From positions 1 to 64,000 of IMG/VR virus record IMGVR_UViG_3300015245_000003: a DNA stretch of 64,000 nucleotides; one strand, written 5' to 3'. Source of the DNA: a virus. Below the pieces are notes generated by a model. It had not been told where the DNA came from. It saw only the letters and a program-made list of their open reading frames with translations, and made no database searches. Below, in pieces: positions 9,834 to 64,000 of the stretch. Each line of letters starts with the position of its first letter. Position 1 is the stretch's first letter. The position numbers were made by a program, and so were the translations under genes.

Positions 9834-10057
9834 GATGCATCTCCGTAGATCTCGAGCGTAGACCATTCCGGCAAGTCGAACTTGCACTCTTCGGCGAACT
9901 CGCGATTGCGGTCGCGCCGGAACGTGAGCTCGTGACGATGGCAGCTACGGCAGAGAATGAGGTTGCCGTGGTGGCCGTCGCTGCCAAGGGGCAAGAGGCG
10001 GACTTCGCCTTGTGAGCTTCCGCAGTGATTGCCGTCACACATCGGATTCTGGCACAT
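9830..10057 (-). CDS. HNH-like zinc protein (75 aa)
   Basis: Cys pairs (CQNPMC at 2-7, CRSC at 36-39) and HRHELTFRRDRN form a pattern like the zinc-bound core of small HNH nucleases or their recombination-associated relatives. The full catalytic HNH set is not obvious. Start ATG 10057 overlaps the upstream stop (TGATG). Confidence 0.65.
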   Translation of the reverse strand: MCQNPMCDGNHCGSSQGEVRLLPLGSDGHHGNLILCRSCHRHELTFRRDRNREFAEECKFDLPEWSTLEIYGDAS

Positions 10058-10431
10058 CAGAAGCTCTCCCGGCGCACGCGGTTGGCGTACATCTCGTGTC
10101 CCTTCGTAGCGTCTCCTTCGTCGTCGCAATCGAAGGCCTCCTTGACTGCGTCTAGAGCCTCGTCCGCCGTGGCATAGGGGCCGTCCCATGACGTGCAATC
10201 GAGGTACCCTGAGGCCGATAGGCGGCCGTACCAGCCCTCTTTGCGCTCGACACCTGCGATACGTGGATGCTCCAAGTAAGGCAGGAGAGTGCGCACGTCA
10301 TCCGGCATTCCGTCAACATTCAGATTGAGCACTCCGCAAACATCCTCAGGCACAATCTCCGTGCCTGCGTTCGTCTCCACGTGGTAGGCCGCCATGTGTT
10401 CGGCGACAGGGACCATGAAAGCCATCGTCAT
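10057..10431 (-). CDS. Hypothetical protein (124 aa), transcript leader gene
   Basis: This soluble acidic protein starts at ATG 10431 behind a strong AAAAAGGAGA ribosome-binding site. Residues 65-100 (GWYGRLSASGYLDCTSWDGP) recall phage proteins of unknown function. It begins a minus-strand chain of overlapping genes down to the SNF2 helicase and beyond. Its leader carries a hairpin and a 17-nt element shared with the Sak4 gene. Confidence 0.85.
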   Translation of the reverse strand: MTMAFMVPVAEHMAAYHVETNAGTEIVPEDVCGVLNLNVDGMPDDVRTLLPYLEHPRIAGVERKEGWYGRLSASGYLDCTSWDGPYATADEALDAVKEAFDCDDEGDATKGHEMYANRVRRESF

Positions 10432-26720: not shown

Positions 26721-27962
26721 TCAGGACTCGGTGGCAGCGAAGGGGTTGAACGGAGGACGGCTGACGTAGCCGGGTCCGACGTCCAGAGAAGGAGTCTGCT
26801 GGGGAGCGCCCGCGACTTCGCGCCGTGGGGCATCGAAGGCGGGAGCCGGCGGGGGAGCGTTGTTCTGCTTGACGGCCTGGGTGTTGCCACCGACCGGCGA
26901 GCCGTTGAGGGCCTGCTGCTTGGGGGCGCCCGCGAAGGTACCCGGGGCGGCACTGGGGAGCGCCGCGGTGGTGGCCTGAGCGAGCTTGGCCTGCGCGGCG
27001 AGCTCCGGCGCGTAGAGCCGGAGGCCGAACGAGGTGCTCTTCATGGCCAGCGACATGCCGTCTTCGGCCGCCTTGCCGAGGGTGCGCGCGGCAGCCGCAA
27101 ACGCCATCAGCTGGAAGAAGGACTTGGGGCCCTTGCTCTTGATGAAGGCCGAAAGGCCCATGGGCACGGCGATGGCGAGCGCGTTGTACGCGACGCGCAT
27201 CCCCGAGCTCCAGATGGGAGTCTGCGGCGACTCGCTGTCGTAGATCTGCCCGGCGGCGGGCGCGTCCACAAAGCCGCCCTGCGCCGACGACGCGGTGAGC
27301 GCGTGGGTCGAACCCATGCGGTCGGCGCCGGCAGCGAAGAGGTAGCCGATGGTGACGGCGAAGAGGCCCGAGAAGAAGTCCAAGCCTCCCTCGAGCGGGA
27401 TGGGGTTGTACTTCGCGAGCGGGTTGCGCTTCACGCGGCGATGCTTCTTGCGGCCCTTGCGCGACTCGGCTGCCTCGTGCGCGTAGCCCGGCGGGTGTGC
27501 CCAGCCCTTGGGATGGCCCTTCTTCTTTTTCCCGATTTTCTGGAAGCCCTGGAAGCCGCCACGCGACTTGGCCTTCTTCTTGGCGCCCTTCTTCTTGGAG
27601 CGCGCCTTGGCTGTAGCCTTCTTTTTCTTCGGATGGCTCTTTGCCTTCTTCTTCGGATGGCTCTTGCCTTCGTTGCGCTTGCGCGTCTTGGCCCCTTTTT
27701 TTGCAGCGGCGCTCCGTGCAGCCTTGTTCTCGGCGCGAGTCTTTGCAGCCTTTTTGGCGGCGAGAGACTTCTTCGATCGGCCCTTCTTCTTGGGATGCGA
27801 CTTCTTGGCCTTCGACTTCGTCTTCTTGGCAGATGAAGATCGACTCGGCTTGCGCGGGCTCTTGGTCTTGCCACGCTTTTCCGCTCGACGCTTGGCCTTC
27901 GCGGCTTTCTGCATCTTCTCGGTAGCGGCCTTCTGGGCCTTTGATCGCTTTTTCTTTGCCAC
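26721..27962 (-). CDS. Lys-rich histone-like membrane protein (413 aa)
   Basis: Start GTG 27962 is preferred because CGAGGAG lies just upstream and a sigma70-like promoter ends 75 bp before it, although the frame is open back to 28163. Residues 1-165 are Lys/Ala-rich with repeated SHPKKK units, like histone H1. Three hydrophobic segments follow (starting FFSGLFAVTIGYLFAAG), then a disordered Pro/Gln-rich tail. It could tether or condense DNA at a membrane. Confidence 0.75.
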   Translation of the reverse strand: MAKKKRSKAQKAATEKMQKAAKAKRRAEKRGKTKSPRKPSRSSSAKKTKSKAKKSHPKKKGRSKKSLAAKKAAKTRAENKAARSAAAKKGAKTRKRNEGKSHPKKKAKSHPKKKKATAKARSKKKGAKKKAKSRGGFQGFQKIGKKKKGHPKGWAHPPGYAHEAAESRKGRKKHRRVKRNPLAKYNPIPLEGGLDFFSGLFAVTIGYLFAAGADRMGSTHALTASSAQGGFVDAPAAGQIYDSESPQTPIWSSGMRVAYNALAIAVPMGLSAFIKSKGPKSFFQLMAFAAAARTLGKAAEDGMSLAMKSTSFGLRLYAPELAAQAKLAQATTAALPSAAPGTFAGAPKQQALNGSPVGGNTQAVKQNNAPPPAPAFDAPRREVAGAPQQTPSLDVGPGYVSRPPFNPFAATES

Positions 27963-28208
27963 GACGTTCTCCTCGGAGGCGCCCGGAGCGGAGGTTCGTC
28001 GTTGCGGAGAGTGTCTGGAAACGCGCTTGTCGAGCATTCCAGCTCTACGGCTGGTCCTTGTCAAGCGCTTCCACCGCTTTTTCGATTGACGACGCGCAGC
28101 GGCGGTCGGCGCGACGCGCCCTATGGCCTTGTCGTACACGTCGAGGTAATTCGTCGTCACCAACGAAGAACTACGACAAACCGCGGTGTTAGTCGACTCC
28201 GCGCGATC
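27963..28208. promoter_or_regulatory. Gap upstream of the virion operon (246 bp)
   Basis: The gap carries the promoter at 28036-28064 and the leader of the Lys-rich protein gene. The frame of that gene stays open through it, so an N-terminal extension cannot be fully excluded. No other gene is supported. Confidence 0.4.
28036..28064 (-). promoter_or_regulatory. Sigma70-like promoter of the virion operon
   Basis: On the minus strand TTGACA (28059-28064), a 17-bp spacer and TGGAAT (28036-28041) form a good bacterial promoter match. It points at the Lys-rich protein gene and the capsid candidates behind it, leaving a leader of roughly 70 nt. Confidence 0.6.
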
Positions 28209-28637
28209 CTATTGGCCATCGTCCAAGAAGCCCCGCCAGTTCATCTTCGTCTTGCCGCGCATCACCAGGCAAAGCACGCGCCCGCGGCGCAGCAAAAGAG
28301 GCTTCGGCGACGCGAAAGAGTGCTGGTAGCGATCTTCGTGCTCGCCGACTCGGTCATATTCGATCTTCGAAACTTCGCCTAGGCAAGTCCAACTTGAAGT
28401 TCGAATGAGCTCGCCGCGAGCACCTGGGATGCTCACAGTAGCATGATACGGAACGTACGTTGGACCAAACCACTTGGTCTTGCGAACAGGCTGCTTCGTT
28501 TTTGAAATTGAAGTTATCAAACAGCGCTTCGCAGGGAAGTCCTGCCCGCTCTCGTCGTGCAGCATCATGCCACCCGGCTTGATTGTGCGGCCATCATCGA
28601 GGGTGATGACGAGGTGACTTCCCTTGGCGATGAGCAT
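28209..28637 (-). CDS. Hypothetical protein (142 aa)
   Basis: ATG 28637 overlaps the upstream stop (TGATG), so it is preferred over an in-frame start at 28655. The N-terminus (HLVITLDDGRTIKPGGMMLH) looks beta-rich, and the remainder is basic. Function is unknown. Confidence 0.7.
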   Translation of the reverse strand: MLIAKGSHLVITLDDGRTIKPGGMMLHDESGQDFPAKRCLITSISKTKQPVRKTKWFGPTYVPYHATVSIPGARGELIRTSSWTCLGEVSKIEYDRVGEHEDRYQHSFASPKPLLLRRGRVLCLVMRGKTKMNWRGFLDDGQ

Positions 28638-28945
28638 CAGGTGCCGCTTCCCCAATTCAGACGGGGCCAGTCCGGTGCCGGTACGTTGGTCCCAGCCATC
28701 GCGTGTGTGCAGTCAACTAGGTACTGCCATACCCCATCGACCATGAAGGAGTGACAGACCTGTGGAACACGCGCTTTACCCTTGTGCCAATCCACGCGCA
28801 TAGATGGCGAAAAGGTAGGCGCTTCATGGGAGCCGTTGAACGTCCAACGCTCGTCGAACATGTGCGGCCCATCGCACGCAGGACACCACACGCTCATGCC
28901 ATACGGCTGACCGTCCTTTGTGATCGGGCGTGTCTTGATACCCAT
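28637..28945 (-). CDS. DUF6527-like protein (102 aa)
   Basis: CPACDGPH near residue 21, WTFNGSHEAPTFSPSM, and VCHSFMVDGVWQYLVDCTH match the DUF6527 pattern found in phages and bacteria. Conserved Cys and His suggest a zinc site. Function is unknown. Confidence 0.8.
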   Translation of the reverse strand: MGIKTRPITKDGQPYGMSVWCPACDGPHMFDERWTFNGSHEAPTFSPSMRVDWHKGKARVPQVCHSFMVDGVWQYLVDCTHAMAGTNVPAPDWPRLNWGSGT

Positions 28946-28949
28946 CGCC

Positions 28950-29123
28950 TTACTTCTTCTTCATCTTCCAGGCGATGCGCTTGTCGGAGAAGCGCCAGTC
29001 TGGTGCAATGGTAAGTCCTTGCTTGATCTTCACGTCGACCTTGCTTTGGTCGATCGATGCCAACAGAACGAGGCAGCGCACCCCTTCGATCTTGCCATCG
29101 CCACTCGGAGGTGAATCAGCCAT
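28950..29123 (-). CDS. Small basic hypothetical protein (57 aa)
   Basis: ATG 29123 overlaps the upstream stop (TGATG). The product is alpha/beta with a Lys-rich end (AWKMKKK). No family is recognised. Confidence 0.6.
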   Translation of the reverse strand: MADSPPSGDGKIEGVRCLVLLASIDQSKVDVKIKQGLTIAPDWRFSDKRIAWKMKKK

Positions 29124-29140
29124 CACGCCACCGTCTTCGG
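29121..29140. repeat. 20-bp direct repeat, copy A
   Basis: The 20 bp across the stop of the 146-aa protein gene and the start of the next recur exactly at 29561-29580. Both copies encode the same C-terminus, PPKTVA, plus the next start codon. Confidence 0.8.
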
Positions 29141-29563
29141 TGGAAGAGCGCCCGACAAACCAATGGTTCCGGGGATGCGATTGCGTACACCCCACCCTTG
29201 GATCCCCGCGTCTGTCTGGTCATCGAGCACGCCATCGGTTCGTCCGACAAGTGCACCTGGTTGAGCATTTTTCCAAACCTGGAACGCCGCAACCGATGCG
29301 CTTTGGCCTGTCGCGGTAGCCCACGCCTTCAGGATGGTGTTGTCCGAAGAAATTCGTGTCGCATCGGTGATCGCTGGCTGACTTGTCGGCAGGGCCTTGT
29401 ACTTGCTGTAGGCCATGAGTGCACCCTCGCCGAGCACGCCACCAGCAACGACACCGAGAATGCGATGCTTCGAGCCACCGACGAAGAAGCCCGCGATGGC
29501 GCCGACGATCGGAAACCCTAGGATCGTAACAAGAGCGCCTGTGCCTCCAATGTTGGCCGTCAT
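29123..29563 (-). CDS. Two-helix membrane protein, virion block (146 aa)
   Basis: The Gly-rich hydrophobic N-terminal part (about 8-52) forms two helices. A soluble domain (about 75-135) follows with GRTDGVLDDQTDAGIQGWGV, weakly like PG_binding_1. It ends in ALPPKTVA, shared with the upstream protein. It is coupled on both sides by TGATG. Confidence 0.7.
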   Translation of the reverse strand: MTANIGGTGALVTILGFPIVGAIAGFFVGGSKHRILGVVAGGVLGEGALMAYSKYKALPTSQPAITDATRISSDNTILKAWATATGQSASVAAFQVWKNAQPGALVGRTDGVLDDQTDAGIQGWGVRNRIPGTIGLSGALPPKTVA

Positions 29564-29580
29564 CACGCCACCGTCTTCGG
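29561..29580. repeat. 20-bp direct repeat, copy B
   Basis: Exact second copy of the repeat at 29121-29140, again across a stop-start junction. A local duplication or recombination of a gene-end cassette is likely. Confidence 0.8.
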
Positions 29581-29742
29581 CGGCAGCTTCGCCCCGCCTT
29601 GCGGCGCCGGAGGCTTCAAGGCGCCTGCCAGGCGCGTCGCCACGGGGCTTGCCGCATAGGCGATGTTGACCACCGCGCTGATGGCGACAAGGCCGAGGAA
29701 GAAGGTCATCCAGGGGTGTTTTTCGGGGAAGCTCATGATCAT
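29563..29742 (-). CDS. Small one-helix membrane protein (59 aa)
   Basis: One helix (about 11-31, WMTFFLGLVAISAVVNIAYA) is followed by a Pro-rich tail that ends in KLPPKTVA. ATG 29742 overlaps the upstream stop (ATGA). It is probably a virion membrane protein. Confidence 0.65.
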   Translation of the reverse strand: MIMSFPEKHPWMTFFLGLVAISAVVNIAYAASPVATRLAGALKPPAPQGGAKLPPKTVA

Positions 29743-30263
29743 CCTTTCGCGGGCGCTTTGAACAGACGAACGGTGGAAGCGATCTGCCCGACGACGTAGG
29801 CAGAGCCCACGAAGCCGGCGACAACCGCGGCGTACTTGATGGCCGTCATGACCGTCGGATCGAGGGTCTTCTTGTCCTCGGGCGGCTTGGTGTTGGGCGC
29901 GACGAGGGTGCAGTTGAGGGCTTCGACTTTCTGGCCCCACTCGTAGAGCTCCTTGGTGAGCGCCTGGGCGTCATCGGCTGTGCGCCCGTCGCCGCCACCC
30001 ACGTGCGTGCTGCCATCGGGCGTCACCGTCGTCACCCAACCGAAGTCGGTGGTTGCGAAGCGTGTGAGGCGCCCCAGAAACTCGTTCCAGGCAGCAGCGA
30101 TGTTCGCTGGAAGCGTAGTGCATGCCTTGATCGCGATATCGAGCGCCTTGGCGTGCTGGAGCATGTCGTTTTGGATCTGCTTCAGATCCCCAGGTAGCCA
30201 GTTCTTGCCGAAGACGGTCTGCGCGACGACAAGCAGTGCGAAGATGGAAGCGACGATGGGCAT
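29739..30263 (-). CDS. Membrane protein with two terminal helices (174 aa)
   Basis: An N-terminal hydrophobic segment (1-18, possible signal) and a second one near the C-terminus (about 142-165, YAAVVAGFVGSAYVVGQIA) flank a helical soluble domain (25-135). The end is basic (KAPAKG). It is coupled on both sides. It probably belongs to the virion or its assembly. Confidence 0.7.
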   Translation of the reverse strand: MPIVASIFALLVVAQTVFGKNWLPGDLKQIQNDMLQHAKALDIAIKACTTLPANIAAAWNEFLGRLTRFATTDFGWVTTVTPDGSTHVGGGDGRTADDAQALTKELYEWGQKVEALNCTLVAPNTKPPEDKKTLDPTVMTAIKYAAVVAGFVGSAYVVGQIASTVRLFKAPAKG

Positions 30264-31462
30264 CAGCGTTTCCTTCGAGGACGCGACTGGCCGAATACGT
30301 ACACAACGCCCGCCACCGCGCCCGCGGCAATGGCCCATCCGGTCAACTGGCCGAGGCTCATCGCAGAGTCGCCTGGCGGCTTGCCGTTGAGAGCCGCTGT
30401 GCCGTCGATGATGGCCTGGCGATAGAGCGCGAGGTTGTTCTTGGCGATGGTCTGCGCCTTCGAGGCGATGGCCGCTGTTGCCGCAGTCGCAGAGAGTGCC
30501 TGGATGTCGCCGTTGGAGAGCCATGCCTGGTGGGTGAAGGGCTGCGTCGTGGGCGCCGCACCGGCCGCGTCGATCTTGGGGCCAACGATGGTTGCGCCGG
30601 CCTGCGCAGCTGCCTGGTAGGATTGCACTGCAGAAGCGAGCTCCGGCGGCGAGGCAGTGAGGTAGGTGTCACCCGCGTCGATGACGGCGGCCACCTGGTT
30701 GCCCAGATCGGTTGCTGCGCTCGTCATCTCCGCAACGCTGCCAAGACGACGCATACCGACCTCTCGCTGTGGAAGGCGACCGAGAGTCACTTTCGGCATC
30801 ACAAGCTCCCCATCGAGGATGTCGCGCAGCGCCCCCAGGTACCGCGCGCGTCCGACGGCGACTAACTCCACATCGCGCACCCCAGCAACGGCCAAGTTCT
30901 CCTTGCCGAACGGGTCGATGCGGTATTCGCTCACCGCGCGCGGCTTCCAGCCCACCGGGTTGTTCGCCGAGTTGAAGTTCGAAAAATCCGTCGCGAGCCA
31001 CGTCCCATCGTCATCCTGAATCTCAAGCAGGACATGATCCGTGTTGGAGTCGAAGTGCTGCACCAGCAGCCGCACCGGGATGCCGTAGCCGGTGCCAAGC
31101 CAACCGAGCGTCGCTGTCCCGTCGTCGCAGTCGCCCACGGGGATGCACGCCGCGGCCCCCGGCACGCACAGCGTGATCATCGGGTTCTGCACCGTCTCGG
31201 TCATGTGCGCGTCCGGCCGATACCGGACGTTGTCGCGCACAAAGTCGAGGAACGCCTGCATCGCCTGGGCGTTGGTGAGGCGCGCATTGGGCGCGTAGCC
31301 AGCCTGCTGGATGATCCCTTCGGCGAACTGGCGTGCGAGCTGGTTGTGCCGCGCCTCGTGGATGTACGAGATGACCTTCTCGATGGCCTTCTCGGGGCCC
31401 GCGGCGCCGGCCGGGTAGTCCTGCCGGCTGACCGACAGTCCGGAGATGGTGGGCATCGCCAT
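30263..31462 (-). CDS. Transglutaminase-like membrane-anchored protein (399 aa)
   Basis: The first 200 residues have a transglutaminase-like cysteine-protease fold with a candidate triad Cys112 (VGDCDDGTA), His143 (TDHVLLEI) and Asp159 (LATDF). A helical Ala-rich linker leads to a C-terminal membrane helix (about 371-391) and a basic RPRRKR tail. The family includes proteases and cross-linking enzymes. Here it could cross-link virion proteins, mature the capsid or act on murein peptides. It starts a coupled chain of five genes. Confidence 0.8.
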   Translation of the reverse strand: MAMPTISGLSVSRQDYPAGAAGPEKAIEKVISYIHEARHNQLARQFAEGIIQQAGYAPNARLTNAQAMQAFLDFVRDNVRYRPDAHMTETVQNPMITLCVPGAAACIPVGDCDDGTATLGWLGTGYGIPVRLLVQHFDSNTDHVLLEIQDDDGTWLATDFSNFNSANNPVGWKPRAVSEYRIDPFGKENLAVAGVRDVELVAVGRARYLGALRDILDGELVMPKVTLGRLPQREVGMRRLGSVAEMTSAATDLGNQVAAVIDAGDTYLTASPPELASAVQSYQAAAQAGATIVGPKIDAAGAAPTTQPFTHQAWLSNGDIQALSATAATAAIASKAQTIAKNNLALYRQAIIDGTAALNGKPPGDSAMSLGQLTGWAIAAGAVAGVVYVFGQSRPRRKR

Positions 31463-31488
31463 GACTCTCCGACAACGCTACCATTCGA

Positions 31489-31517
31489 TTGTCAAGCGGT
31501 CATCTACCCTCTAGAGT
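31489..31517 (+). promoter_or_regulatory. Possible promoter before the duplicated membrane gene
   Basis: TTGTCA (31489-31494), a 17-bp spacer and TAGAGT (31512-31517) fit sigma70 boxes, but the start codon follows only 7 bp after the second box, so the mRNA would be nearly leaderless. Regard as tentative. Confidence 0.35.
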
Positions 31518-31524
31518 TGAAGGC

Positions 31525-32031
31525 ATGACCAAGGGTGGCGTCTTCGCGGTGGTTGCGCTCGGATCGGCAATCGGCGCTGTCGCGGGAGCTGCCGCCATCG
31601 GGAAAAAGCGGGGGCCGATGAGGCAGCAGCCCTACGCGCCCATCGGCGCTGCGGTGCTGGCGACGGGAGTCGCCGCGGTGGCCTACAAGGCGCCCCAGTG
31701 CCCTCCCTGCGCCCCAGGGTTGGTCGCGAATGGAGTCGTCACCAGTCTGCCGGCGCTCTCGCACGGGGGCTACGGCGCGGCGGTGGCGCTCGCGTCGGCC
31801 ATTGGCGGGGTCGTCGGAGCGATGGCCATCGGCAAGCAGAAGTCGAGCAAGCTGCTCGGCCAGCAGCCCTACTCGGCCATTGGCGCAGCGCTCGCGGGCG
31901 CGGGCGCGGCGGCCATCTTCTACCCCAACGCGCCGAGCTGCCCGCCGTGCGTCGCACCGACTCCCCCGCCGGCCCCCTCGCCGAACGACGGCAATGGAGC
32001 TCCGACAGGTGCACCCTCGCCGCCGCGCTAG
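31525..32031 (+). CDS. Membrane protein made of two tandem repeats (168 aa)
   Basis: Two units of about 70 residues repeat the order hydrophobic helix, GA-x-AIGKK/Q, QQPY-x-IGAA, hydrophobic helix and CPPC. Four helices are predicted, and the Pro-rich tail is disordered. It is the only plus-strand gene inside the virion block and overlaps the next minus gene by 4 bp at its stop. The CPPC pairs may bind a metal or form disulfides. Confidence 0.75.
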   Translation: MTKGGVFAVVALGSAIGAVAGAAAIGKKRGPMRQQPYAPIGAAVLATGVAAVAYKAPQCPPCAPGLVANGVVTSLPALSHGGYGAAVALASAIGGVVGAMAIGKQKSSKLLGQQPYSAIGAALAGAGAAAIFYPNAPSCPPCVAPTPPPAPSPNDGNGAPTGAPSPPR

Positions 32032-32558
32032 ACGTGAAACGTCAGCGGCTTCGGAGCAACGACCAGCGGTAGCGAGACGACGGTCTGCTGCGCGCGGCCC
32101 GCGCTGTCCTTCCAGCCGGCGACGATCATGTTGGTGCCAACCAATTGCCCGATCGAGAGCGAGATGGCGCTCGTCGTGTCCCCGTTGAGGCCCACCTGCG
32201 CGAAGATCGCATGCGTTGAGGAGTTGCCGATGATGATGGTCGTCCACGAGGCGCCTGGGGGCAAGATGAGGGTCACCCATGAGGTGCCCGTCAGCTGCGT
32301 CGACATCGCGCCGGGGGCCATTGTGAGCTGAGGACCTGCGGGGGGCGCATTGCTCGAAAAAGTACCGGCCCCCGTCGAGGGGATAGGCCGCAGGACGTTG
32401 ATCAGCGGCGGAGGAGGACCCGTCTTGGCTGCGAGCTGCGCGGCGAATGTCGCCCCTGCCGCGGCGGTCTTACGGCTCTGCACAGCCTCATAGGCCATGA
32501 CGCCCGCGACGCCCACGCCCACGATACCGAGCCCCAACATCCACGGCTTGACCTTCAC
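32028..32558 (-). CDS. One-helix membrane protein with beta domain, paralog 4
   Basis: GTG 32558 sits behind GAGAGGAG. The helix (about 7-23) ends in MAYEAVQSRK. A Pro-rich linker (50-80) leads to a beta domain with VTLILPPGASW and the closing VAGWKDSAGRAQQTVVSLPL. These two segments match paralog 3 closely. It is the longest member of the family. Confidence 0.75.
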   Translation of the reverse strand: MKVKPWMLGLGIVGVGVAGVMAYEAVQSRKTAAAGATFAAQLAAKTGPPPPLINVLRPIPSTGAGTFSSNAPPAGPQLTMAPGAMSTQLTGTSWVTLILPPGASWTTIIIGNSSTHAIFAQVGLNGDTTSAISLSIGQLVGTNMIVAGWKDSAGRAQQTVVSLPLVVAPKPLTFHV

Positions 32559-32569
32559 AGGGACTCCTC

Positions 32570-32893
32570 TCAGGCGACGTGGTAGCCGAGCGCGGTCATG
32601 ATGCTTTGCAGCTGCGGGTTCATCTGCGAGTAGAGAGCCGAAGGGATGCCAGTGGCTTGCCAGTCGGAGAGCGACGCGTGGTCGATCGACGCAGCGAAGT
32701 TGGCCCACTGCGCGTAGGTCATCGTCTGACCTGCGATCGTGGCTGTCTGGTTGGCGACGTTGGCCACGGCAGTGCCGCCTCCGGTTGGAGCCGCCGGCTG
32801 GCTCTTCTCGTAGAAGTAGATGCCGATGCCAGCGACGGTCAGCGTCCCGAGTCCCACGAGCCACGCGAGCGCGGCGTTGTCTTTCTTGGCCAT
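32570..32893 (-). CDS. One-helix membrane protein (107 aa)
   Basis: The helix (about 9-27) ends in IYFYEKSQ as in the beta-domain family, but the soluble part (45-107) is helical (MTYAQWANFAASIDHASLSD) instead of beta. It is likely another virion membrane protein with a different head. Confidence 0.72.
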   Translation of the reverse strand: MAKKDNAALAWLVGLGTLTVAGIGIYFYEKSQPAAPTGGGTAVANVANQTATIAGQTMTYAQWANFAASIDHASLSDWQATGIPSALYSQMNPQLQSIMTALGYHVA

Positions 32894-32905
32894 GACGTCC
32901 TCATC

Positions 32906-34171
32906 CTATCGCAAACGACCGACGACGGCGCGTACGCCACTTTTGCCCAGGGAGATCGTACGAAACGAACCCTTTTGGAAGTCACCAGGGTCGCGCTGGC
33001 GAATCCGAACGGTGTTCGGCTTGATGTCCGGCTCCTTGTGCACCGCGTAGTTGTGACTACGGGCCCACGCCTTGGCGCGTGAAGGAGAAAAACGCGGGCG
33101 GGGGAAGAGCAGCGTTTGCACCGTCGTCTTCTTGCTCGACTCACTCGCAGTGAGTGGCAGCGGGTTGACCTTGGCGATGAGTCGCCCAGCAGAGCCCTTC
33201 CAGACGCCGCGCGCGGCGCCGAGGTAGCTCTGCTTCGTCAAAAGGGCCCAGACGCCAATGCCGGCTGCGCCAGTCGCCAACGTGATCGCAGCGATGATAG
33301 CGATGCGTTTCGCTGTTGACGGCGCGGTGGCCGCGGAAGCGCCTGCCTTCTGCAAGGCCGCCATCGAGTCCGCCGTCGTAGGCAGATGGCGAAGCGTGAT
33401 CGGCGTGAGAATGAGACCCCCCGTGTTGACCGTGAAGGAGCTCGTTGTCTGATCTGGCCCGTTGTAGTTTGCAGGGTTGACGAGATCGGCGAACGTCGCG
33501 TTGTCAGGCAAATGAGTGTATTTGGCGACAATCGCATTGTAGAGCGCGTCGGCGATCGGATCGTAGTTCGGGTTGGCCCCGAAGCTGGTGATGTGATCGA
33601 AGACACGCTGGACGACTCGCGTCGAGGACGGCGCGTGCTTGGCGTTCCAGCTGGCGATGAGGCTCGCGAGCAAGACCTGCGGCGGCAACTTCGCCTGAGG
33701 AAAACAGTTCTGCGCGAGCAGCCAGTTGTACTCGAGGATGGGATTCGCGTAGGCCTCGAAGCTCCCCGGAGCATCGGGGCCGTAGCTTCCATTGAACGAG
33801 GCCCACGACGTGAAGTTGGGCCACGAGGTCAAGTCGAGCGGCGAATTGCTCCGCGGGGGGTTCGCACACGTGCCGGCGCCACCACTCGCGTGCGGCGCTA
33901 CGTTGTATAGCTCGAGGAGCCCGGCGAAGACGGGGCCTGCAATGGGTACTGCGGCTGCAGCCGTCGCCGCCATGGCCTGAAGGACCGCCTGCGAGGCCGC
34001 GTCGGAGATTTGGATGGTGCCATTGGGCCCAAGGGTGACACCCTGCGGCGCCTTGTTGAACGACTCGTAGTACGCAGCACCCGTCGCGACATCCGTTTGG
34101 ATGTCGTCGGGAACATACGAAGTCAGGTCGAACTGCTCGTTGATCTGGCCCGCGATGCTGGCTGCGCTCAC
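32906..34171 (-). CDS. Structural protein candidate with central membrane helix (421 aa)
   Basis: GTG 34171 begins the gene. Hydrophobic segments occur at about 66-88 and 291-310 (IAIIAAITLATGAAGIGVWA). The last 65 residues (RFSPSRAKAWARSHNY, then FQKGSFRTISLGKSGVRAVV) match a small module seen at the ends of various phage proteins. The protein may span the virion membrane. A promoter-like sequence lies directly upstream. Confidence 0.7.
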   Translation of the reverse strand: MSAASIAGQINEQFDLTSYVPDDIQTDVATGAAYYESFNKAPQGVTLGPNGTIQISDAASQAVLQAMAATAAAAVPIAGPVFAGLLELYNVAPHASGGAGTCANPPRSNSPLDLTSWPNFTSWASFNGSYGPDAPGSFEAYANPILEYNWLLAQNCFPQAKLPPQVLLASLIASWNAKHAPSSTRVVQRVFDHITSFGANPNYDPIADALYNAIVAKYTHLPDNATFADLVNPANYNGPDQTTSSFTVNTGGLILTPITLRHLPTTADSMAALQKAGASAATAPSTAKRIAIIAAITLATGAAGIGVWALLTKQSYLGAARGVWKGSAGRLIAKVNPLPLTASESSKKTTVQTLLFPRPRFSPSRAKAWARSHNYAVHKEPDIKPNTVRIRQRDPGDFQKGSFRTISLGKSGVRAVVGRLR

Positions 34172-34177
34172 CGCCTC

Positions 34178-34207
34178 ACAGTAGCGCTAGATGGGCCTGT
34201 TGGACAA
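34178..34207 (-). promoter_or_regulatory. Promoter-like sequence before 421-aa gene
   Basis: On the minus strand TTGTCC (34202-34207), an 18-bp spacer and TACTGT (34178-34183) resemble sigma70 boxes. The GTG start follows after only 6 bp, so the call is weak. Confidence 0.3.
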
Positions 34208-34231
34208 CTAGAGGCTTGACAGCGAGGCGAA

Positions 34232-34387
34232 CTAGGCTTGGCCGCGGCCGACGGGTTTGCCTTCCGCGTCGAGCTTCTCCGCGAATGTGGCGATCGGCTT
34301 TACCTTCGCCAAAAGGGCCAAGAAGTCGGGGCACTCCGGAACTTGATGCGCCAGGCCACAAAACGGACAGAGCTTGTTGTGGATCAT
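34232..34387 (-). CDS. Small zinc-knuckle protein (51 aa)
   Basis: MIHNKLCPFCGLAHQVPECP holds a C-x2-C-x3-H-x4-C knuckle. ATG 34387 overlaps the upstream stop (ATGA). A Lys/Glu-rich C-terminus follows. Function is unknown. Confidence 0.65.
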   Translation of the reverse strand: MIHNKLCPFCGLAHQVPECPDFLALLAKVKPIATFAEKLDAEGKPVGRGQA

Positions 34388-35871
34388 CCGATGTTGGGGG
34401 TCCACCCCGCGGCGCGTGACTGGCTTCCATTGGCCTGCGGCTGCGCGGCGTTCGGCGGCAGATTTCGCACGGCCTGTGCCTGCTGCCCTCCCATGTTAGT
34501 GAGCGCGGAGACCAGCTTGCCGAAGGTCCCCTGGTCGAGCATCTGCATCCCCTTCTCGAGGATCTTGCCAGAGATCTTAGGGTTGCCCAGAGCGTTGCGC
34601 GTCAGCCACTGCAGCGTCGTCTCGCCCTCGGCCTGCTTGCCATACATGACCGGCTCCCCCTCGAAGCGGATGAACTGCTCGTTGACCGGCTGCATCGCGT
34701 GCTCGTCGACTTCGGGGGCGACGACGACGGTGGGAAGCGCGGGAGCCGCGACGGGCGTCTCCTCTTCCTCTTCGGGGGCGAACATCTCGCGCATCTCCGC
34801 TTCCATGCGGCGGAACTCGCGCATCTGCGTGAAGAACTCCTTGGCTGCGGTCATGGGCGCCGTCACGGCCTGCGCGACGACGGGTGTAGTGAGCGGCGGT
34901 GCCGCGGGGGCCAGTGGAGGAGCGCCAGGAGTCGGGATGACGCCCAACGTCTGCAGCGTCTGCGTCACCGTCCGCGCGATGCGCTCCTCGAGATTGTCGA
35001 CCGCTGGCGCCGCAGGTTGCTGCATGAACGTCCGCGGATCGGGCGGTGGAGGCGGAGCCTGGCCGAGGCGTGCAGCCTCACGGCGTTCGCGCTCGTACAT
35101 CCCCCAGACGCGATCGAACATCGACTCCATGAAGGCGTTGCCCCCCGCTGCTGCAGGCGCCGCCGGAGTTGGCATAGACCCTCCATCGAAAGCCTGTGGC
35201 GCATGCCTCTCCGGCGCGCCCGCGTAGGTGGGCCTTCGGTAGGACGGCGCCGCACCCCCGAAGTCCCGCTCTCGCTCGCGATCTCGCTGCATCGTCGCGA
35301 CCGCCTCCCAGCGCTTGCGGATGTCCGCTGCGCTCTGGAGCACCACTTCAGCCGTGCCGAGGCTCCGATCGTTCTTGGCCCCGCCTCGCAGTTGAAACCA
35401 GAGGCGGTACTTCGCAGGACCCGCGTTGGTTGCAACTTGGAAAACCCGCTCGAGGTAGTCGATGAGGTCTTCGCCCGGCGTCCTGCTCGAGGTGCCGGCC
35501 ACCGACGCGCCGTCGATAGGGGCCATCTGCTTGGCCTCCTCGCGATTGGGGCCGATGATGGTCTGCCGCGCGGCGATGGAGACCTGCTCGGCGCCGCCGA
35601 GGCCTCGCGCGCCGATACGCTCGATGATGTCCTCCCAGATGGCGCCGACGTCGAGCTCCCGCGGGCCAACGTCGGCGGGTTCGGGTGAGGAGGCCGACGT
35701 CGCGGGCTGCGAGATGGGGCCGGAGTTCTTGCGGGGCCGGCCGCCCTTGTTTTTCTTCACAGGCGAAGCGGGAGCCGGTTGGGGAACCGGCGGGGCGGCA
35801 GCCTGCGGCTGATCGTCGTCCTCTTCATCTTCGGCGAGAGCGGCGGCGAGATCCGAGTCGACTTCACTCAC
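34384..35871 (-). CDS. Large Pro/Ala-rich protein, possible scaffold (495 aa)
   Basis: The N-terminus is acidic (EDEEDDDQ), followed by KKNKGGRPRKNSG, an AT-hook-like motif (GRPRK). Residues about 70-190 look folded and alpha/beta. The centre (200-330) is a Pro/Ala-rich linker, and the C-terminal part has a charged coiled coil (REFRRMEAEMREMFAPEEEE). Mixed disorder and coiled coil would suit a scaffolding or DNA-binding assembly protein, but no family is recognised. Confidence 0.65.
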   Translation of the reverse strand: MSEVDSDLAAALAEDEEDDDQPQAAAPPVPQPAPASPVKKNKGGRPRKNSGPISQPATSASSPEPADVGPRELDVGAIWEDIIERIGARGLGGAEQVSIAARQTIIGPNREEAKQMAPIDGASVAGTSSRTPGEDLIDYLERVFQVATNAGPAKYRLWFQLRGGAKNDRSLGTAEVVLQSAADIRKRWEAVATMQRDRERERDFGGAAPSYRRPTYAGAPERHAPQAFDGGSMPTPAAPAAAGGNAFMESMFDRVWGMYERERREAARLGQAPPPPPDPRTFMQQPAAPAVDNLEERIARTVTQTLQTLGVIPTPGAPPLAPAAPPLTTPVVAQAVTAPMTAAKEFFTQMREFRRMEAEMREMFAPEEEEETPVAAPALPTVVVAPEVDEHAMQPVNEQFIRFEGEPVMYGKQAEGETTLQWLTRNALGNPKISGKILEKGMQMLDQGTFGKLVSALTNMGGQQAQAVRNLPPNAAQPQANGSQSRAAGWTPNIG

Positions 35872-36158
35872 TGGAGTGCTCCTTTTGAAAGACCGAGGCG
35901 ATCGAGAACGAGATCCTTGAACGTTTCGGACTGTTGGTCACCGACAAGGTATGGCGCCAGAGTCGCCTCGACAACTTCAACAGGATCGACCTGAGGCATG
36001 TCGGCCAGAAGGACGCGCAAGTAGCCGGCGAGCACCGCAGCTCCCGCTACGTCCGATCCTGCAGCGAGCTGCATGAGACGTCTGCCGGTCACCATGAGCG
36101 CGTTGGCCATCGCAGTGCCTTCACGCTCGAGACCCATGAGCTCTTCCTCTGTCGCCAT
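35868..36158 (-). CDS. Helical hypothetical protein (96 aa)
   Basis: ATG 36158 has GGAG at a good distance. The all-helical product (ATEEELMGLEREGTAMANAL) ends in ATGA overlap with the large Pro-rich gene. Function is unknown. Confidence 0.72.
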   Translation of the reverse strand: MATEEELMGLEREGTAMANALMVTGRRLMQLAAGSDVAGAAVLAGYLRVLLADMPQVDPVEVVEATLAPYLVGDQQSETFKDLVLDRLGLSKGALQ

Positions 36159-36169
36159 CTTCAACTCCG

Positions 36170-36967
36170 TTACGAGATCACGAGCGATGTCTGGTAGACG
36201 GGCAAGGTCAGCTTCTGCGTAAAGGTCGCGCCCATCCAGCTCTGCAGCATGGACTTCTGGCTGTCGGGAAAGCCGTCGTCGCAACACGACGAGAAGAAGG
36301 GTTGGAAGGCGAGCGCGGCGACGGTTGCGTAGCCGTTGCCGGGCGACAGCAAGTCGAGGGCCGTCACCTTGAGCGTGGGGCTGATGATGCCTCCGGAGCC
36401 GCCCGAATCGGTCACCACGGCCACCGGCGGCACCTGGTAGGGCCCTCCGGGGTTGGTAATCACAGGCACCTGCAGGTTGCCACCGATCTGCGTGATGGTC
36501 GCCGTCGCCTGTGTCCCGCCGGGGGCCAGCTGGCCACCGACGAACGCGATAGTAGGCGCCACGTAGCCGGCCCCGCCCGCGATGACGATGCACCGACCGA
36601 CGCCCATGTCAGCGCGCACGCGCGCGATGACATTCTGGGCGGTCCCTGGGACCGTAACGAGGGGCGGCGCTGCGTAGTCCGCTCCAGCGACACCAAGGGC
36701 CACCGACTTGACCGGCGAGCCGTTGGTGTTTCCGGGGAACAACGTTGCAATACCCGTCGCGTCGGTTGTCGGCCGCGCGCGAAACTGGATGGTGCGCGTG
36801 ACGACCTGCCCCACCTCCGACGTGTTGTCCGCCACGTAGAGCAGCCCCACCTTGTTGGGCAGGAACAGATCCACGGGGATCGCCAGCATGCGCAGAGCGA
36901 GCGCGTTGGCTGAAACCGCTCCAACGGCGGTGAACTTGTAGACGGCGGTGAGCAGGGTGGTCGTCAT
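36170..36967 (-). CDS. Fibre-like beta-repeat structural protein (265 aa)
   Basis: After a 70-residue N-terminal domain, three or more units repeat the pattern GxxYxxPPxV / GGxGYxxPxI (near 92-215). These match the beta-repeat of phage tail-fibre and adhesin proteins. A C-terminal segment with CCDDGFPDSQ closes the chain. It may be a spike or host-contact protein. Confidence 0.75.
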   Translation of the reverse strand: MTTTLLTAVYKFTAVGAVSANALALRMLAIPVDLFLPNKVGLLYVADNTSEVGQVVTRTIQFRARPTTDATGIATLFPGNTNGSPVKSVALGVAGADYAAPPLVTVPGTAQNVIARVRADMGVGRCIVIAGGAGYVAPTIAFVGGQLAPGGTQATATITQIGGNLQVPVITNPGGPYQVPPVAVVTDSGGSGGIISPTLKVTALDLLSPGNGYATVAALAFQPFFSSCCDDGFPDSQKSMLQSWMGATFTQKLTLPVYQTSLVIS

Positions 36968-36982
36968 GGTGGGCGCAGTATC

Positions 36983-37321
36983 CTACGGCGATTCCTCTGC
37001 GTCGAGAGCAGCCAGGTGAGCGCGCCCCATGCGCTCGTTGGTTTCTGCCAGGGGCGCCTGGCGGAAGGCAGCGACGCGCGCCGCTTCCTCCCTGCGAGCT
37101 TGCATCTTCGCCGCGTGCACCGCACCACCCTTGCGCCCCGCCTCGCGCGCTTTCTCGCTACCCTTCTGGAACTCAAAGGCGGTCCCCTTGACGTGGGCGG
37201 CGATGCCGCCCTTGCGAGCGATTTCGCTTCGGCGCTCGGGCGAGACGGAGGTCATGCCTGGCTTGCGGCGCGGGGGTTCGACGGTTGGATCGAAGTCTTG
37301 AACGAGAATGTGCTGCGTCAT
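36983..37321 (-). CDS. KGG-motif (stress-induced) protein (112 aa)
   Basis: Two KGG repeats, RSEIARKGGIAAH and AREAGRKGGAVHAAK (about 31-70), match the stress-induced bacterial motif of GsiB/YciG-type proteins. The N-terminus is Pro-rich and the C-terminus helical. ATG 37321 lies behind AAAAAAAGGAGACAC. A DNA- or water-binding role is unproven. Confidence 0.78.
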   Translation of the reverse strand: MTQHILVQDFDPTVEPPRRKPGMTSVSPERRSEIARKGGIAAHVKGTAFEFQKGSEKAREAGRKGGAVHAAKMQARREEAARVAAFRQAPLAETNERMGRAHLAALDAEESP

Positions 37322-37323
37322 GG

Positions 37324-37545
37324 TCAGTGTCTCCTTTTTTTCGCGGTCGTTTTCTTCGTCTTCAGCGAGTCCCGCGCAGGGCCCATCTCGAGCCACATGC
37401 CGTCATTGGTCACCGTTATCGAGAAGGCGCGCCCGCCTTCGTTGACGGCTTTCTCGAAGAGCACGAGAAACTTTGTGTAGTTGGCAGCTGGCGAACGGCT
37501 CATACGCACCGTCGCCAGCTTCTTGCGAACTCTTGTCGTCTTCAC
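37324..37545 (-). CDS. Small basic protein (73 aa)
   Basis: A basic N-terminus (MKTTRVRKKLATVRMSR) and a Lys/Arg-rich end (KTKKTTAKKRRH) flank an alpha/beta core resembling SRP9/14-like small RNA-binding folds (KFLVLFEKAVNEGGRAFSIT). That resemblance is loose. ATGA overlap with the upstream gene. Confidence 0.68.
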   Translation of the reverse strand: MKTTRVRKKLATVRMSRSPAANYTKFLVLFEKAVNEGGRAFSITVTNDGMWLEMGPARDSLKTKKTTAKKRRH

Positions 37546-38078
37546 GGCGTCTCGGGCTCTTCGTCGTCGCCGCCCAGAAGCCCGATGTCATCGGCCACGG
37601 TGAGCTCCTCGAAGGCCACCGCATCGACGAACGCGTCGAGCGTCATCCTGTGCGTGGTGGTCTTATTGACCACCATGTTGATGGTCAGGCGCCGGTACTC
37701 GCGCGCGCCCGGGGCCACCACGGTCAGGGGGACCAAGTAGATCCGCAGGTCGCCCTGCATGTACTCGGCGACGCGCTCGTTGCTCTCGCCCTGGTACATG
37801 GCCAGCACGTGGAAGGCGTCGTTCTTGGGCGCCGGCTTTGATACGGCCCAGGTGACGTCACCGACTTGAACTTGGCCGAGGACTTCGATCTTCTTGATGT
37901 CCTCGACGTCCATCTCGAAGTCTTCGATAAGCGTCGCGTGGATGCGCGCGACGATGTCCGCAACGGAGAGCTGCTGGACGGTCGCGGGAGGCGGCGCTGT
38001 GGGCGCCTGCGGCTGCGGCGCGGCGGGACCTTCGGACACGGGGGTACCCACCGTGTCGATCACGGGAGCGTTTGACAT
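37542..38078 (-). CDS. Hypothetical protein (178 aa)
   Basis: A Pro/Ala-rich N-terminus (1-35) precedes an alpha/beta domain (VQVGDVTWAVSKPAPKNDAF, RIYLVPLTVVAPG). ATG 38078 follows an AAAAAAAGGAGA ribosome-binding site, so expression may be high. No family is recognised. Confidence 0.75.
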   Translation of the reverse strand: MSNAPVIDTVGTPVSEGPAAPQPQAPTAPPPATVQQLSVADIVARIHATLIEDFEMDVEDIKKIEVLGQVQVGDVTWAVSKPAPKNDAFHVLAMYQGESNERVAEYMQGDLRIYLVPLTVVAPGAREYRRLTINMVVNKTTTHRMTLDAFVDAVAFEELTVADDIGLLGGDDEEPETP

Positions 38079-60622: not shown

Positions 60623-60798
60623 GCGCCCGCGCACGCTACCGTCCGTGGTTTTCCGTTCGACAACTTGAAATCAACGCCGAGCTCTTTTGGGAGATGGTCG
60701 GCTACGAGCTCCACTACTTGCGTAGCCTCGAGATCATGTCGCCGAGGCCTCTTGTCTGGATGCCTGCCGAAACGCAGCCGCCCTGGTACACAAAGTGA
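60619..60798 (+). CDS. Small hypothetical protein (59 aa)
   Basis: GTG 60619 overlaps the previous stop. The frame ends in GTGA overlap with the nuclease start. AELFWEMVGYELHYLRSLEI looks helical. Function is unknown. Confidence 0.65.
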   Translation: MSARARYRPWFSVRQLEINAELFWEMVGYELHYLRSLEIMSPRPLVWMPAETQPPWYTK

Positions 60799-62027
60799 CC
60801 CTCCAAGCCTCCGCCTCCAAGTCCGAGCTACTCATCCAGTGCGCCCGGCCCTTCGAAGACGGCATCACCACCGACGACGAGGCAGGCGAACCGGCCCGGT
60901 ATGGCAGCGCCTTCCACGAGCTGATGGAGCTGCCGACGTGGAAGGTCAACGTGCTGACACCGGTCGTGCTCAAGATGGAGCGCAAGTGGAACATTCCCGG
61001 CGCTGCCTCTGAGCTCGTGGGCCACGTTCGCGCTGCGCGACGTCTCCTCAAGCGTTGGATGCGCGGGGAGAACCAGTTCAACATCAACTTCGCTGCCGGC
61101 AAGGTCGAGAACGAGGTTGCCTTCGCGATCAACCCGCACGAACTGACGGTGAGGCGCATCGAGCTGCCGAGCGTTGAGGACCACGTCTACCAGGATGTCG
61201 ATGCGCTCGTCGAGATCCCAGGGACTGCAGACCGGATCACCAACTTCCCGCTTGTGATGGATTACAAGACGGGGAGAGACCCGTTCGATTTCTTTACCGT
61301 CCCGGAGGATGTGTCGCAGTTGAGGACCCTCGGCGTCGCCGTGTGGCTAGAGACACGCGAGCGCGTCGATGTCTTCGAAGAGGAGGTCATTCTCGCCGTC
61401 CTGCACACCCCTCGCGGCTCGATGCCAGCCATCTACGCCGACGCGGTCTCCGTCAAAGACCTGCGAAAGCACGCCCAGCAGCTCAGCGAGGCACTCGCTC
61501 GACGAGGCGACGGGAGTATGCGCCGTGGCCCCTGCTGCCGCGTGTGCTCCGCGCGCTACGACTGCCCGCTGCAGCTCTCGACGTACATCAAGGGCGCCGG
61601 TGAGGCGCTCGAGATGGCTCGCAGCGCTGGGATCGAGCTCAAAGACCTCGTCGAGTACGGCCGCAACGACTTCGAGTTGGTGCGCGGCGATCCACCGCAG
61701 ATCTTTGACCAGGCAAGCTCCGCGATCGTCACCTCTGACGACGTAGGCAAGTTGCACTACTTCATCGCGCAGTTCGATCGCCTGCAAGGGGCTGCCCAGT
61801 CGCTGATGAAGCAGTGGGTCATCGACAACACCGGCAAGGACGTCGCCGTGCGCCCCGACGGCAAGGTGCTCGTCATCAAGACCAAGGAGCAGGAGAACCT
61901 CTCCAAGGCGTCGATCATCCGCGCACTCGGCAAGCTACGCGGCGAAGCCCTGATTCAAGAGCTCCGAGAGAACGGCGTCATCGAGATGACCGAGCGCACC
62001 GAGCTGCACGCGGTCGACGACAAGTAG
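60795..62027 (+). CDS. PD-(D/E)XK nuclease, RecB/Cas4-like (410 aa)
   Basis: GTG 60795 begins the gene. GSAFHELM (38-44), QDVDALVEI (Asp136) and VMDYKTG (Asp156, Lys158) give the H, D and DxK set of the PDDEXK_1 superfamily. Four Cys (247, 248, 251, 257) late in the domain suggest an Fe-S cluster as in Cas4/AddB. The C-terminal 120 residues form an extra helical region. The enzyme degrades or trims DNA ends and may work with the Sak4-like protein. Confidence 0.87.
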   Translation: MTLQASASKSELLIQCARPFEDGITTDDEAGEPARYGSAFHELMELPTWKVNVLTPVVLKMERKWNIPGAASELVGHVRAARRLLKRWMRGENQFNINFAAGKVENEVAFAINPHELTVRRIELPSVEDHVYQDVDALVEIPGTADRITNFPLVMDYKTGRDPFDFFTVPEDVSQLRTLGVAVWLETRERVDVFEEEVILAVLHTPRGSMPAIYADAVSVKDLRKHAQQLSEALARRGDGSMRRGPCCRVCSARYDCPLQLSTYIKGAGEALEMARSAGIELKDLVEYGRNDFELVRGDPPQIFDQASSAIVTSDDVGKLHYFIAQFDRLQGAAQSLMKQWVIDNTGKDVAVRPDGKVLVIKTKEQENLSKASIIRALGKLRGEALIQELRENGVIEMTERTELHAVDDK

Positions 62028-62028
62028 C

Positions 62029-62175
62029 TTACCGACCAGGGGTCATCATGAGCATGCTGCCCGCGTCCGGGATGCTCGCGCCCCCGCCCAGCGTGAGCTC
62101 GCGCACTGTTCCCAAGCGTGTCAACTTCGGCGGCGAGTACGGTTTGCGCGGTGGTTTGTCTTTGTCTGTTTCCAT
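62029..62175 (-). CDS. Lasso-peptide-like precursor (48 aa)
   Basis: Residues 13-28 (YSPPKLTRLGTVRELT) fit the leader rule of lasso peptides, Y-x2-P-x-L-x3-G-x5-T, exactly. With Thr28 at position -2, the core would start at Gly30, and Asp37 would be position 8, able to form an eight-residue macrolactam ring. The predicted core is GGGASIPDAGSMLMMTPGR. Start ATG 62175 has a strong AAAAGGAGAGG site. No lasso enzymes (protease, cyclase, RRE) are in the window. Confidence 0.7.
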   Translation of the reverse strand: METDKDKPPRKPYSPPKLTRLGTVRELTLGGGASIPDAGSMLMMTPGR

Positions 62176-62198
62176 GTTCCTCTCCTTTTCGAAAGCCT

Positions 62199-64000
62199 TC
62201 AGTTGTAGGAAGCTTCGGCAAAGATCGTCATATCGATCGTTCCGATTGCACCCACGGTAATGCCGCACGTGAGCGTTATAAACAATGTGTTGGCCATGAC
62301 GCCGATGTTGACCGTCCCGCGGATATTGGTACCAGGGGTAAAGCTGGTGTCTGGGACTATCACGGGGGTCGTTGGGGTTTGCATCAGACCCGCCACGTTG
62401 TAGCTGCGGCATATCGTAACAACACCAGTCGAGTTCGCACTGGCAACGGCCGAGCCACGCTCAATCCATGTGTCCCCTTGCGTCTCGCCTGAATTGGCTG
62501 TGGCAACCTTCATTGTGGACCAGATGTCAACGTACATCCCTGCCAAGCTAGGCAATGGGATGGCCAAAGTGATACCTGTATTCACAACGGAGATGCGCCC
62601 AAACTGGGAGTACGGGACTTTCTTGGCAAGTTGTGTGTTGATCGATCCCCCCACAACTGGATTGAGCACCCGAATCGCCTGGCCAGTTGGGAGATTCGAG
62701 AAGCCGTAGACCAGCGAGGGCGCTGCGAAGTTGGCTAGGACGAGCCCACTCTTGAGGTTGCCGCTCGCGTCGGCGTTGGCCAAAAACCCTGCCGGTGCCG
62801 TGACGGACAAGATCATCTTCTCGTTCGCCGATGCGTCGGTCGACGCCAGCTCCACTTGCGCAGGCGTAACGTCAAGCTCGTTGATCGCCGTCCCGCCAGG
62901 GTTGGTCGACGTCACGCGAAGCCCTGAAGTCCCCGACGAGAGGTTCATCGTCGTGGCTGCAGGACCACTCTGTGCGAGCGCGGAAATGCCCGCTGGGGCC
63001 ACTGCGAACGTTGTCGGAGCGCCGCCACTGGTCGCGCTCAATCCGACATTGCCAGTTCCCTGATTGATCTGCGTGTTGGCAGCGCCTGCCGCGACCTCAG
63101 TTGTGATCAACGTCGGTGTGACATTGACGGTACCGGTGTTGGTCCCATCGGTCGCGTTGGTGAGCACACCCGCCGTCGTCGCCGCGACGAGGTTGTGGAT
63201 CGCTCCGCTTTGCGCCTCGATGGCTGCAACACCGGCTCCGACACCCACAGTGGCGACGTTGGTCGCGTCGTGCATCGCCGCAGTCGAGGTGTCCATCGAC
63301 AGCGACGTGCCGCCAGCCACTACGGCATTGAAGGTCCCCGGCCCTGCAGTCACTGCGACGGAGTTGGTGCCGTCGGTGTTTGTGATGTTGACACGAGCGT
63401 TGTTGACATCGATGCCGCTGATGTCTGGCCCCGAGATGGCCGTCATCTGCGCATCGTTCTCGGTGACGACGAGGTTTGCGCTCCCATCGTTGGCAGCGAT
63501 GAAGGCGCTGCCCTGCGTCACCTGCATCCGGAAGTTCGCCGACACCGCCGAGATGTTCGATGGCTGGACGTTGAAGGTGACTGCCGCCGCTCCAGCGCCC
63601 GCGGTGAAGGGAGGCCCACCGACGCCCGCGGTTCCGGAGGCTCCAGTGGCGCCTGTGACGCCGGAGATGCCCGGAGTGCCGCTGGCGCCAGTCACACCGG
63701 TGACCCCTTGCGCGCCGGAGCCCGAGACACCCGTGACGCCCGTAGTGCCGGTGGTCCCCGTGATGCCGCTGAGGCCCGTCGCGCCGACCGGTCCAGTGAC
63801 CCCGGTCGCGCCTGAGGGGCCGGTAGCGCCTGTCGTTCCTGTGACGCCTGAGATGCCCGTAGGTCCACCAGGAGCTCCCGAAGCGCCAGTAGTGCCGGAG
63901 ACGCCCGTGGGGCCCATCGCGCCCGTGGTGCCCGCGCCGCTGACGCCCGTGGCGCCCGCCGGTCCCTGCACCGCGCCGACGACCTCCTTGATGATGATCG
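62199..64000 (-). CDS. Collagen-like fibre protein, 5' end outside window
   Basis: The visible part (about 600 residues) begins with [20 protein letters not shown] and continues as Gly-X-Y collagen-like repeats for about 120 residues, rich in GTTG/GVTG units. A long beta-rich, Ala/Asn/Thr-rich shaft follows, then a C-terminal domain of aromatic beta strands that probably trimerises. Such proteins form receptor-binding fibres or spikes. It runs off the right edge. Confidence 0.88.

Follow-up and report, generated by a model that had tools for sequence, protein, structure and literature searches.

An orphan lasso-type precursor gene behind the tail-fibre gene of a tailed phage

The window that we analysed is the whole stretch of 64,000 bases which opens the IMG/VR virus record IMGVR_UViG_3300015245_000003, a record of 77,712 bases without end repeats. 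On its minus strand, an open reading frame starting with an ATG at 62175 and closed by a TAA stop encodes a product of 48 amino acids, METDKDKPPRKPYSPPKLTRLGTVRELTLGGGASIPDAGSMLMMTPGR (by translation), which starts 23 nt past the stop of the gene of a 1503-aa tail fibre; its own stop is 1 nt away from that of a convergent exonuclease gene (Table 1). The sequence 5' of the ATG (...CGAAAAGGAGAGGAAC-ATG) contains a strong Shine-Dalgarno sequence, AAGGAG, which bears out the strong ribosome-binding site of the original prediction. Of the six frames, that of the precursor comes closest to phage codon usage, with 7.9 bits where the second-best frame has 2.9. Since phage genes stand within 1 and 23 nt of this intact and tightly packed gene, which has phage-like codons and a strong Shine-Dalgarno sequence, it is not a contaminant from a contig edge. 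The surroundings of the gene showed no promoter or terminator pattern, and it is therefore probably expressed with the tail-fibre transcript.

Table 1. Features at the precursor locus (positions in the 64,000-base window).
Feature	Position	Strand	Details and basis
Orphan lasso-type precursor gene	62029..62175	-	48 aa; leader 1-29, predicted core 30-48 GGGASIPDAGSMLMMTPGR; translation, NF033521, register
Lasso leader motif, residues 13-29: Y(-17) P(-14) L(-12) G(-8) T(-2) L(-1)	62089..62139	-	NF033521 match 62083-62139; position table
Predicted 19-residue core, Gly1 = residue 30, ring acceptor Asp8 = residue 37	62032..62088	-	Cleavage site inferred from the Thr(-2) rule (PMC10368454)
23-nt gap with Shine-Dalgarno AAGGAG, tail-fibre stop to precursor ATG	62176..62198	-	Sequence inspection
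3' part of the tail-fibre gene upstream of the precursor	62199..64000	-	Full gene 62199-66710, 1503 aa, collagen-like; Pfam Collagen, PHROG tail fibre E 2.6e-103
Convergent PD-(D/E)XK phage exonuclease gene	60795..62027	+	Stop 1 nt from the precursor stop; PF12705, phrog_69

The record encodes proteins of replication and DNA metabolism (a D5-type primase, Pol I, a Dda-like helicase and a Sak4-like annealing protein), together with an adenine methyltransferase, a dNMP kinase and a tyrosine integrase, the last of which we counted in favour of a temperate phage. Its structural and other genes include collagen-type tail fibres, a baseplate-hub-like protein and a phage-type glycosyltransferase. Neither a terminase of PF03237 or PF17289 nor, in PHROG and Pfam scans, a capsid or portal family was found in the record; this could reflect a fragmentary or incomplete record, or else head proteins which have diverged too far. 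The 64-kb window gave no tRNA or Rfam match as a clue to an attachment site or to the host. The minus-strand block 26724-38078, made of long genes of high GC3 with almost no PHROG or Pfam matches, may be the head module of a group of phages of which few have been sampled. For the protein encoded at 32909-34171, the AlphaFold model (pLDDT 34) was not good enough to be used in a fold search. A glycosyltransferase fused to a methyltransferase-like domain is encoded immediately upstream of the tail-fibre gene (L001 5726-7531, minus strand; 66726-68531 of the record), and its closest named relatives are those of Synechococcus phages ACG-2014f (36%).

For the Pol I, the primase, the glycosyltransferase and the integrase, the matches are remote and come from many different hosts. 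Relatives of the primase were found at 14 distant loci, all of them devoid of a lasso leader, and the pair of primase and exonuclease recurs in only one, the distant phage contig L024, which has in common with our record the divergent arrangement of these two genes, with Pol I and a helicase beyond the primase (38% identity for the primase, 35% for the exonuclease). Beside its exonuclease, L024 has other genes and no lasso leader. The searches seeded with the exonuclease and with the C terminus of the tail fibre gave no relatives of either.

A lasso core usually starts with Gly and has Asp or Glu at position 7, 8 or 9, and Thr at position -2 is typical of most lasso precursors. The original prediction held that the 48-residue product fits the rule Y-x2-P-x-L-x3-G-x5-T at residues 13-28, with Thr at -2 and a core which starts with Gly and has Asp as its eighth residue; translation and the position table confirm each of these points. 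Given the predicted cleavage after Leu29, Thr28 stands at -2, Gly30 is residue 1 of the core and Asp37 is residue 8, so that Tyr-17, Pro-14, Leu-12, Gly-8, Thr-2, Gly1 and Asp8 are all in published lasso positions: YxxPxL spans -17 to -12, the Thr(-2) rule marks the cleavage site, and the ring of BsfA joins Gly1 to Asp8 (PMC10368454). The predicted lengths, 29 aa for the leader and 19 aa for the core, fall within the 20-40 aa and 13-33 aa which PMC13352647 gives as usual for lasso peptides (see also PMC6784204). When compared to the lasso precursors with a YxxPxL leader (NF033521; for example BsfA of Bradymonas sediminis and the fusilassin/fuscanodin family), the precursor shares with them Y(-17), P(-14), L(-12) and Gly1, as well as the lengths of leader and core, and it has the same ring acceptor, Asp8, as BsfA. 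Its Thr at -2 is that of most lasso precursors, whereas BsfA itself has Ile there. Unlike them, it is encoded by a phage and is an orphan, devoid of B1, B2 and C. No similarity of its core to a known lasso was found, and the predicted core tail offers Leu and Met but nothing aromatic as a plug, a point against lasso maturation.

The leader model NF033521 (lasso_leader_L3, the NCBIfam model of a lasso RiPP family) matches the precursor with 31 bits, its curated cut-off being 19. The E-value of this match is 1.6e-7 when the protein is compared with 18,950 models and 3.5e-8 over the whole 77.7-kb record, of which it is the only match; even when scaled to 2.9 million viral contigs, the expected number of chance matches to this model is at most about 0.1. 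Judged by this calibrated profile, the leader is a real lasso-leader homologue. By Markov-1 simulations, a genome of this size should hold 0.013 matches to the bare rule Y-x2-P-x-L-x3-G-x5-T, and the rule completed by Gly1 and by D/E at positions 7-9 was met in 0 of 300 simulated genomes. A match to the bare rule would by itself be weak evidence, because looser patterns match viral contigs by plain accident. Likewise 20% of the Gly residues in the proteins of this phage have D/E at +6 to +8, and Asp at ring position 7-9, taken alone, is therefore weak evidence, of modest weight.

Searches of viral contigs, named phages and plasmids gave no close relative of the whole peptide, and two GTDB scans, with alignment-derived patterns and with PYxPPxLxxLGxxxELTLGG, yielded no confirmed relative; in these same collections the core has no homologue either. 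The peptide matches no PHROG or Pfam family. Its single match in a named phage (E 6) lies in a frame which has no lasso leader, and is hence due to chance. About 29 other viral contigs match looser versions of the motif, and only one of them, L002, presents a credible small precursor frame; the other matches to leader patterns, gathered in three scans of viral contigs, are either interrupted by stops or belong to short frames and long proteins which are unrelated. As to the conservation of Gly1 and Asp8, there was no core homologue to compare, and the other viral leader peptide has no ring acceptor.

This other peptide belongs to IMGVR_UViG_3300035698_017437, a 142-kb record (32% G+C in the part read) with a terminase and 13 tRNA genes in 20 kb, which is a tailed phage unrelated to the present one. 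Its lasso-leader gene, directly after a tRNA-Met gene (L002 2533-2808; L004 about 9970-10130), is phage-borne and orphan like ours, no B1, B2 or C match having been obtained in profile searches, and the two leaders are 56% identical over 25 residues. NF033521 gives it 21.6 bits (cut-off 19), although its best model is the cyanobacterial NF033528, below the cut-off of that model. The gene sits in a tRNA array whereas ours lies behind a tail fibre, and its core, GTGGSCYPPQPPGSPGMPWDPCS, is rich in Cys and Pro and has no D/E at positions 7-9, where our precursor has Asp8. This means, as far as the predicted products go, that a viral lasso leader can precede a core which is not lasso-competent. 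A third gene, WP_341531756.1 (L049 6013-6159), annotated as a hypothetical protein only, is carried by the conjugative plasmid NZ_CP151101.1 of Nostoc sp. UHCC 0302, and no lasso B or C gene was recognised in the 12 kb read. This orphan precursor-like gene shares with ours a length of 48 aa, a YxxPxL leader, T(-2), Gly1 and a location on a mobile element; it differs in that its ring acceptor is Asp9, that its carrier is a plasmid and not a phage, and that it is of the cyanobacterial subtype (NF033528 28.7 bits, below the cut-off of 33). As both the second tailed phage and the Nostoc plasmid carry such genes, mobile elements do carry lasso-precursor-like genes without enzymes nearby.

A lasso peptide is formed by removal of the leader and closure of a macrolactam (-18 Da), in a threaded topology, and lasso clusters encode B1 (an RRE, PqqD-like), B2 (a transglutaminase-like peptidase) and C (an Asn-synthetase-like cyclase). 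The absence of maturation enzymes which had been noted for the window extends to the whole 77.7-kb record, which may be incomplete: neither the PqqD-like RRE (PF05402), nor the B2 peptidase (PF13471, NF033537), nor the cyclase (PF00733) is encoded in it, so that no cluster of B1, B2 and C surrounds the precursor within these limits. We considered as a substitute for B2 a transglutaminase-like protein of 399 aa (30266-31462, minus strand), and rejected it: its match to PF01841 (Transglut_core) is below the cut-off (E 0.003), it matches neither PF13471 nor NF033537 and hence is not of the B2 family, it has no relative in the PDB or in named phages, and its AlphaFold model (pLDDT 36) is too poor for a fold search. 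One can notice in this protein the motif GDCDDGT...DHVLLEI...LATDFS, and also a stretch, RRLGSVAEMT, resembling the end of a lasso leader, which is probably a coincidence.

We propose that the gene is a moron of a tailed phage encoding an orphan class-II lasso precursor which would be matured in trans by lasso enzymes of the host, a proposal to which we give about even chances of being right. The cargo gene would be translated with the tail-fibre gene or just after it; in the infected host or the lysogen, the leader would bind the RRE (B1) of a putative lasso system of this host, whose B2 protease would cleave after Leu29 and whose C cyclase would link Gly1 to the Asp8 side chain and so close a ring of 8 residues, with a tail of 11 residues. 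The calculated [M+H]+ is 1805.83 for the linear core and 1787.82 after loss of water. Once threaded, the lasso would serve the phage or the lysogen; its likeliest role would be that of an antibacterial or of a factor in competition. In broader terms, the most parsimonious view is that the orphan precursor acts in trans on lasso enzymes of the host, whether to yield a peptide of use to phage or lysogen or to occupy the RRE. A temperate phage that gains by cargo of lysogenic conversion is expected to carry a tyrosine integrase gene, as this record does. A moron is intact cargo between modules, absent from relatives; here the gene is flanked at 1 nt and 23 nt, and in L024, the only distant relative with synteny, this place is taken by other genes.

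Other origins and uses of the gene have to be weighed against this proposal. It could have been captured from a bacterial lasso cluster and be translated without any function in the phage, as would agree with its place where the replication genes meet those of the tail fibre, a kind of boundary at which phages often acquire cargo, with its absence beside the exonuclease of L024 and with the lack of visible conservation. However the intact frame, the Shine-Dalgarno sequence, the presence of all key residues and the packing at 1 and 23 nt argue against free decay and leave room for a recent capture; on the whole, we find such a passenger unlikely. A chance resemblance in an unrelated small frame is highly improbable: many genomes were scanned for a rule expected about 0.013 times in each, and accidental matches to looser patterns are common, but neither the E-value of the profile over the whole record nor the fact that just one of the approximately 29 other contigs holds a credible precursor frame is what accident would give.

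The leader could also act as a decoy, occupying the RRE (B1) of the host and so blocking the maturation of a host lasso harmful to the phage or to its neighbours, the core being then irrelevant. It is indeed the best-conserved part of the peptide, it is retained without a ring acceptor in IMGVR_UViG_3300035698_017437, and neither phage gene is accompanied by enzymes. A decoy has no need, however, of a core which is lasso-competent in register (Gly1, Asp8), and no experimental account of a lasso system that counters phages was found, a study which correlates bacterial lasso RiPPs with phage interactions (PMC11118758) offering co-expression correlations only. Read in this way, the intact and correctly spaced core favours the production of a lasso over a decoy, which we regard as quite unlikely. 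Still less probable, in our opinion, is the reuse of the leader as an RRE-type recognition sequence on a peptide modified differently or not at all, for instance a small tail-associated or regulatory one: the position directly behind the tail-fibre gene and the Cys/Pro-rich core without ring acceptor of the other phage would suit it, but the core here fits the lasso rules and the peptide belongs to no PHROG or Pfam family. Both the decoy and the other uses stay alive because the core of the second phage has no ring acceptor.

The original prediction regarded lasso precursors in viruses as not established. The open literature that we searched, which left out most subscription papers and all bioRxiv preprints, agrees with this as far as its accessible texts go, including reviews on natural products and phages (PMC12360287) and on lasso peptides (PMC13352647): no report of a phage-encoded lasso precursor was found in it, and owing to this coverage the novelty of such a precursor is provisional. 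The statement must nevertheless be qualified, since there is a second phage record which bears an orphan lasso-leader gene.

Finally we must note what the proposed maturation in trans would mean beyond this phage. In at least two unrelated tailed phages, orphan RiPP precursors may be recognised by lasso enzymes of the host and then be matured by them or block them, a generalisation which we hold tentatively, as somewhat short of an even bet. As lasso enzymes find their precursors through the leader, a single gene of 147 bp might be enough for a phage to have the machinery of its host make a new knotted peptide, or to jam this machinery. If true, this would be a trans-acting viral use of a natural-product pathway of the host.
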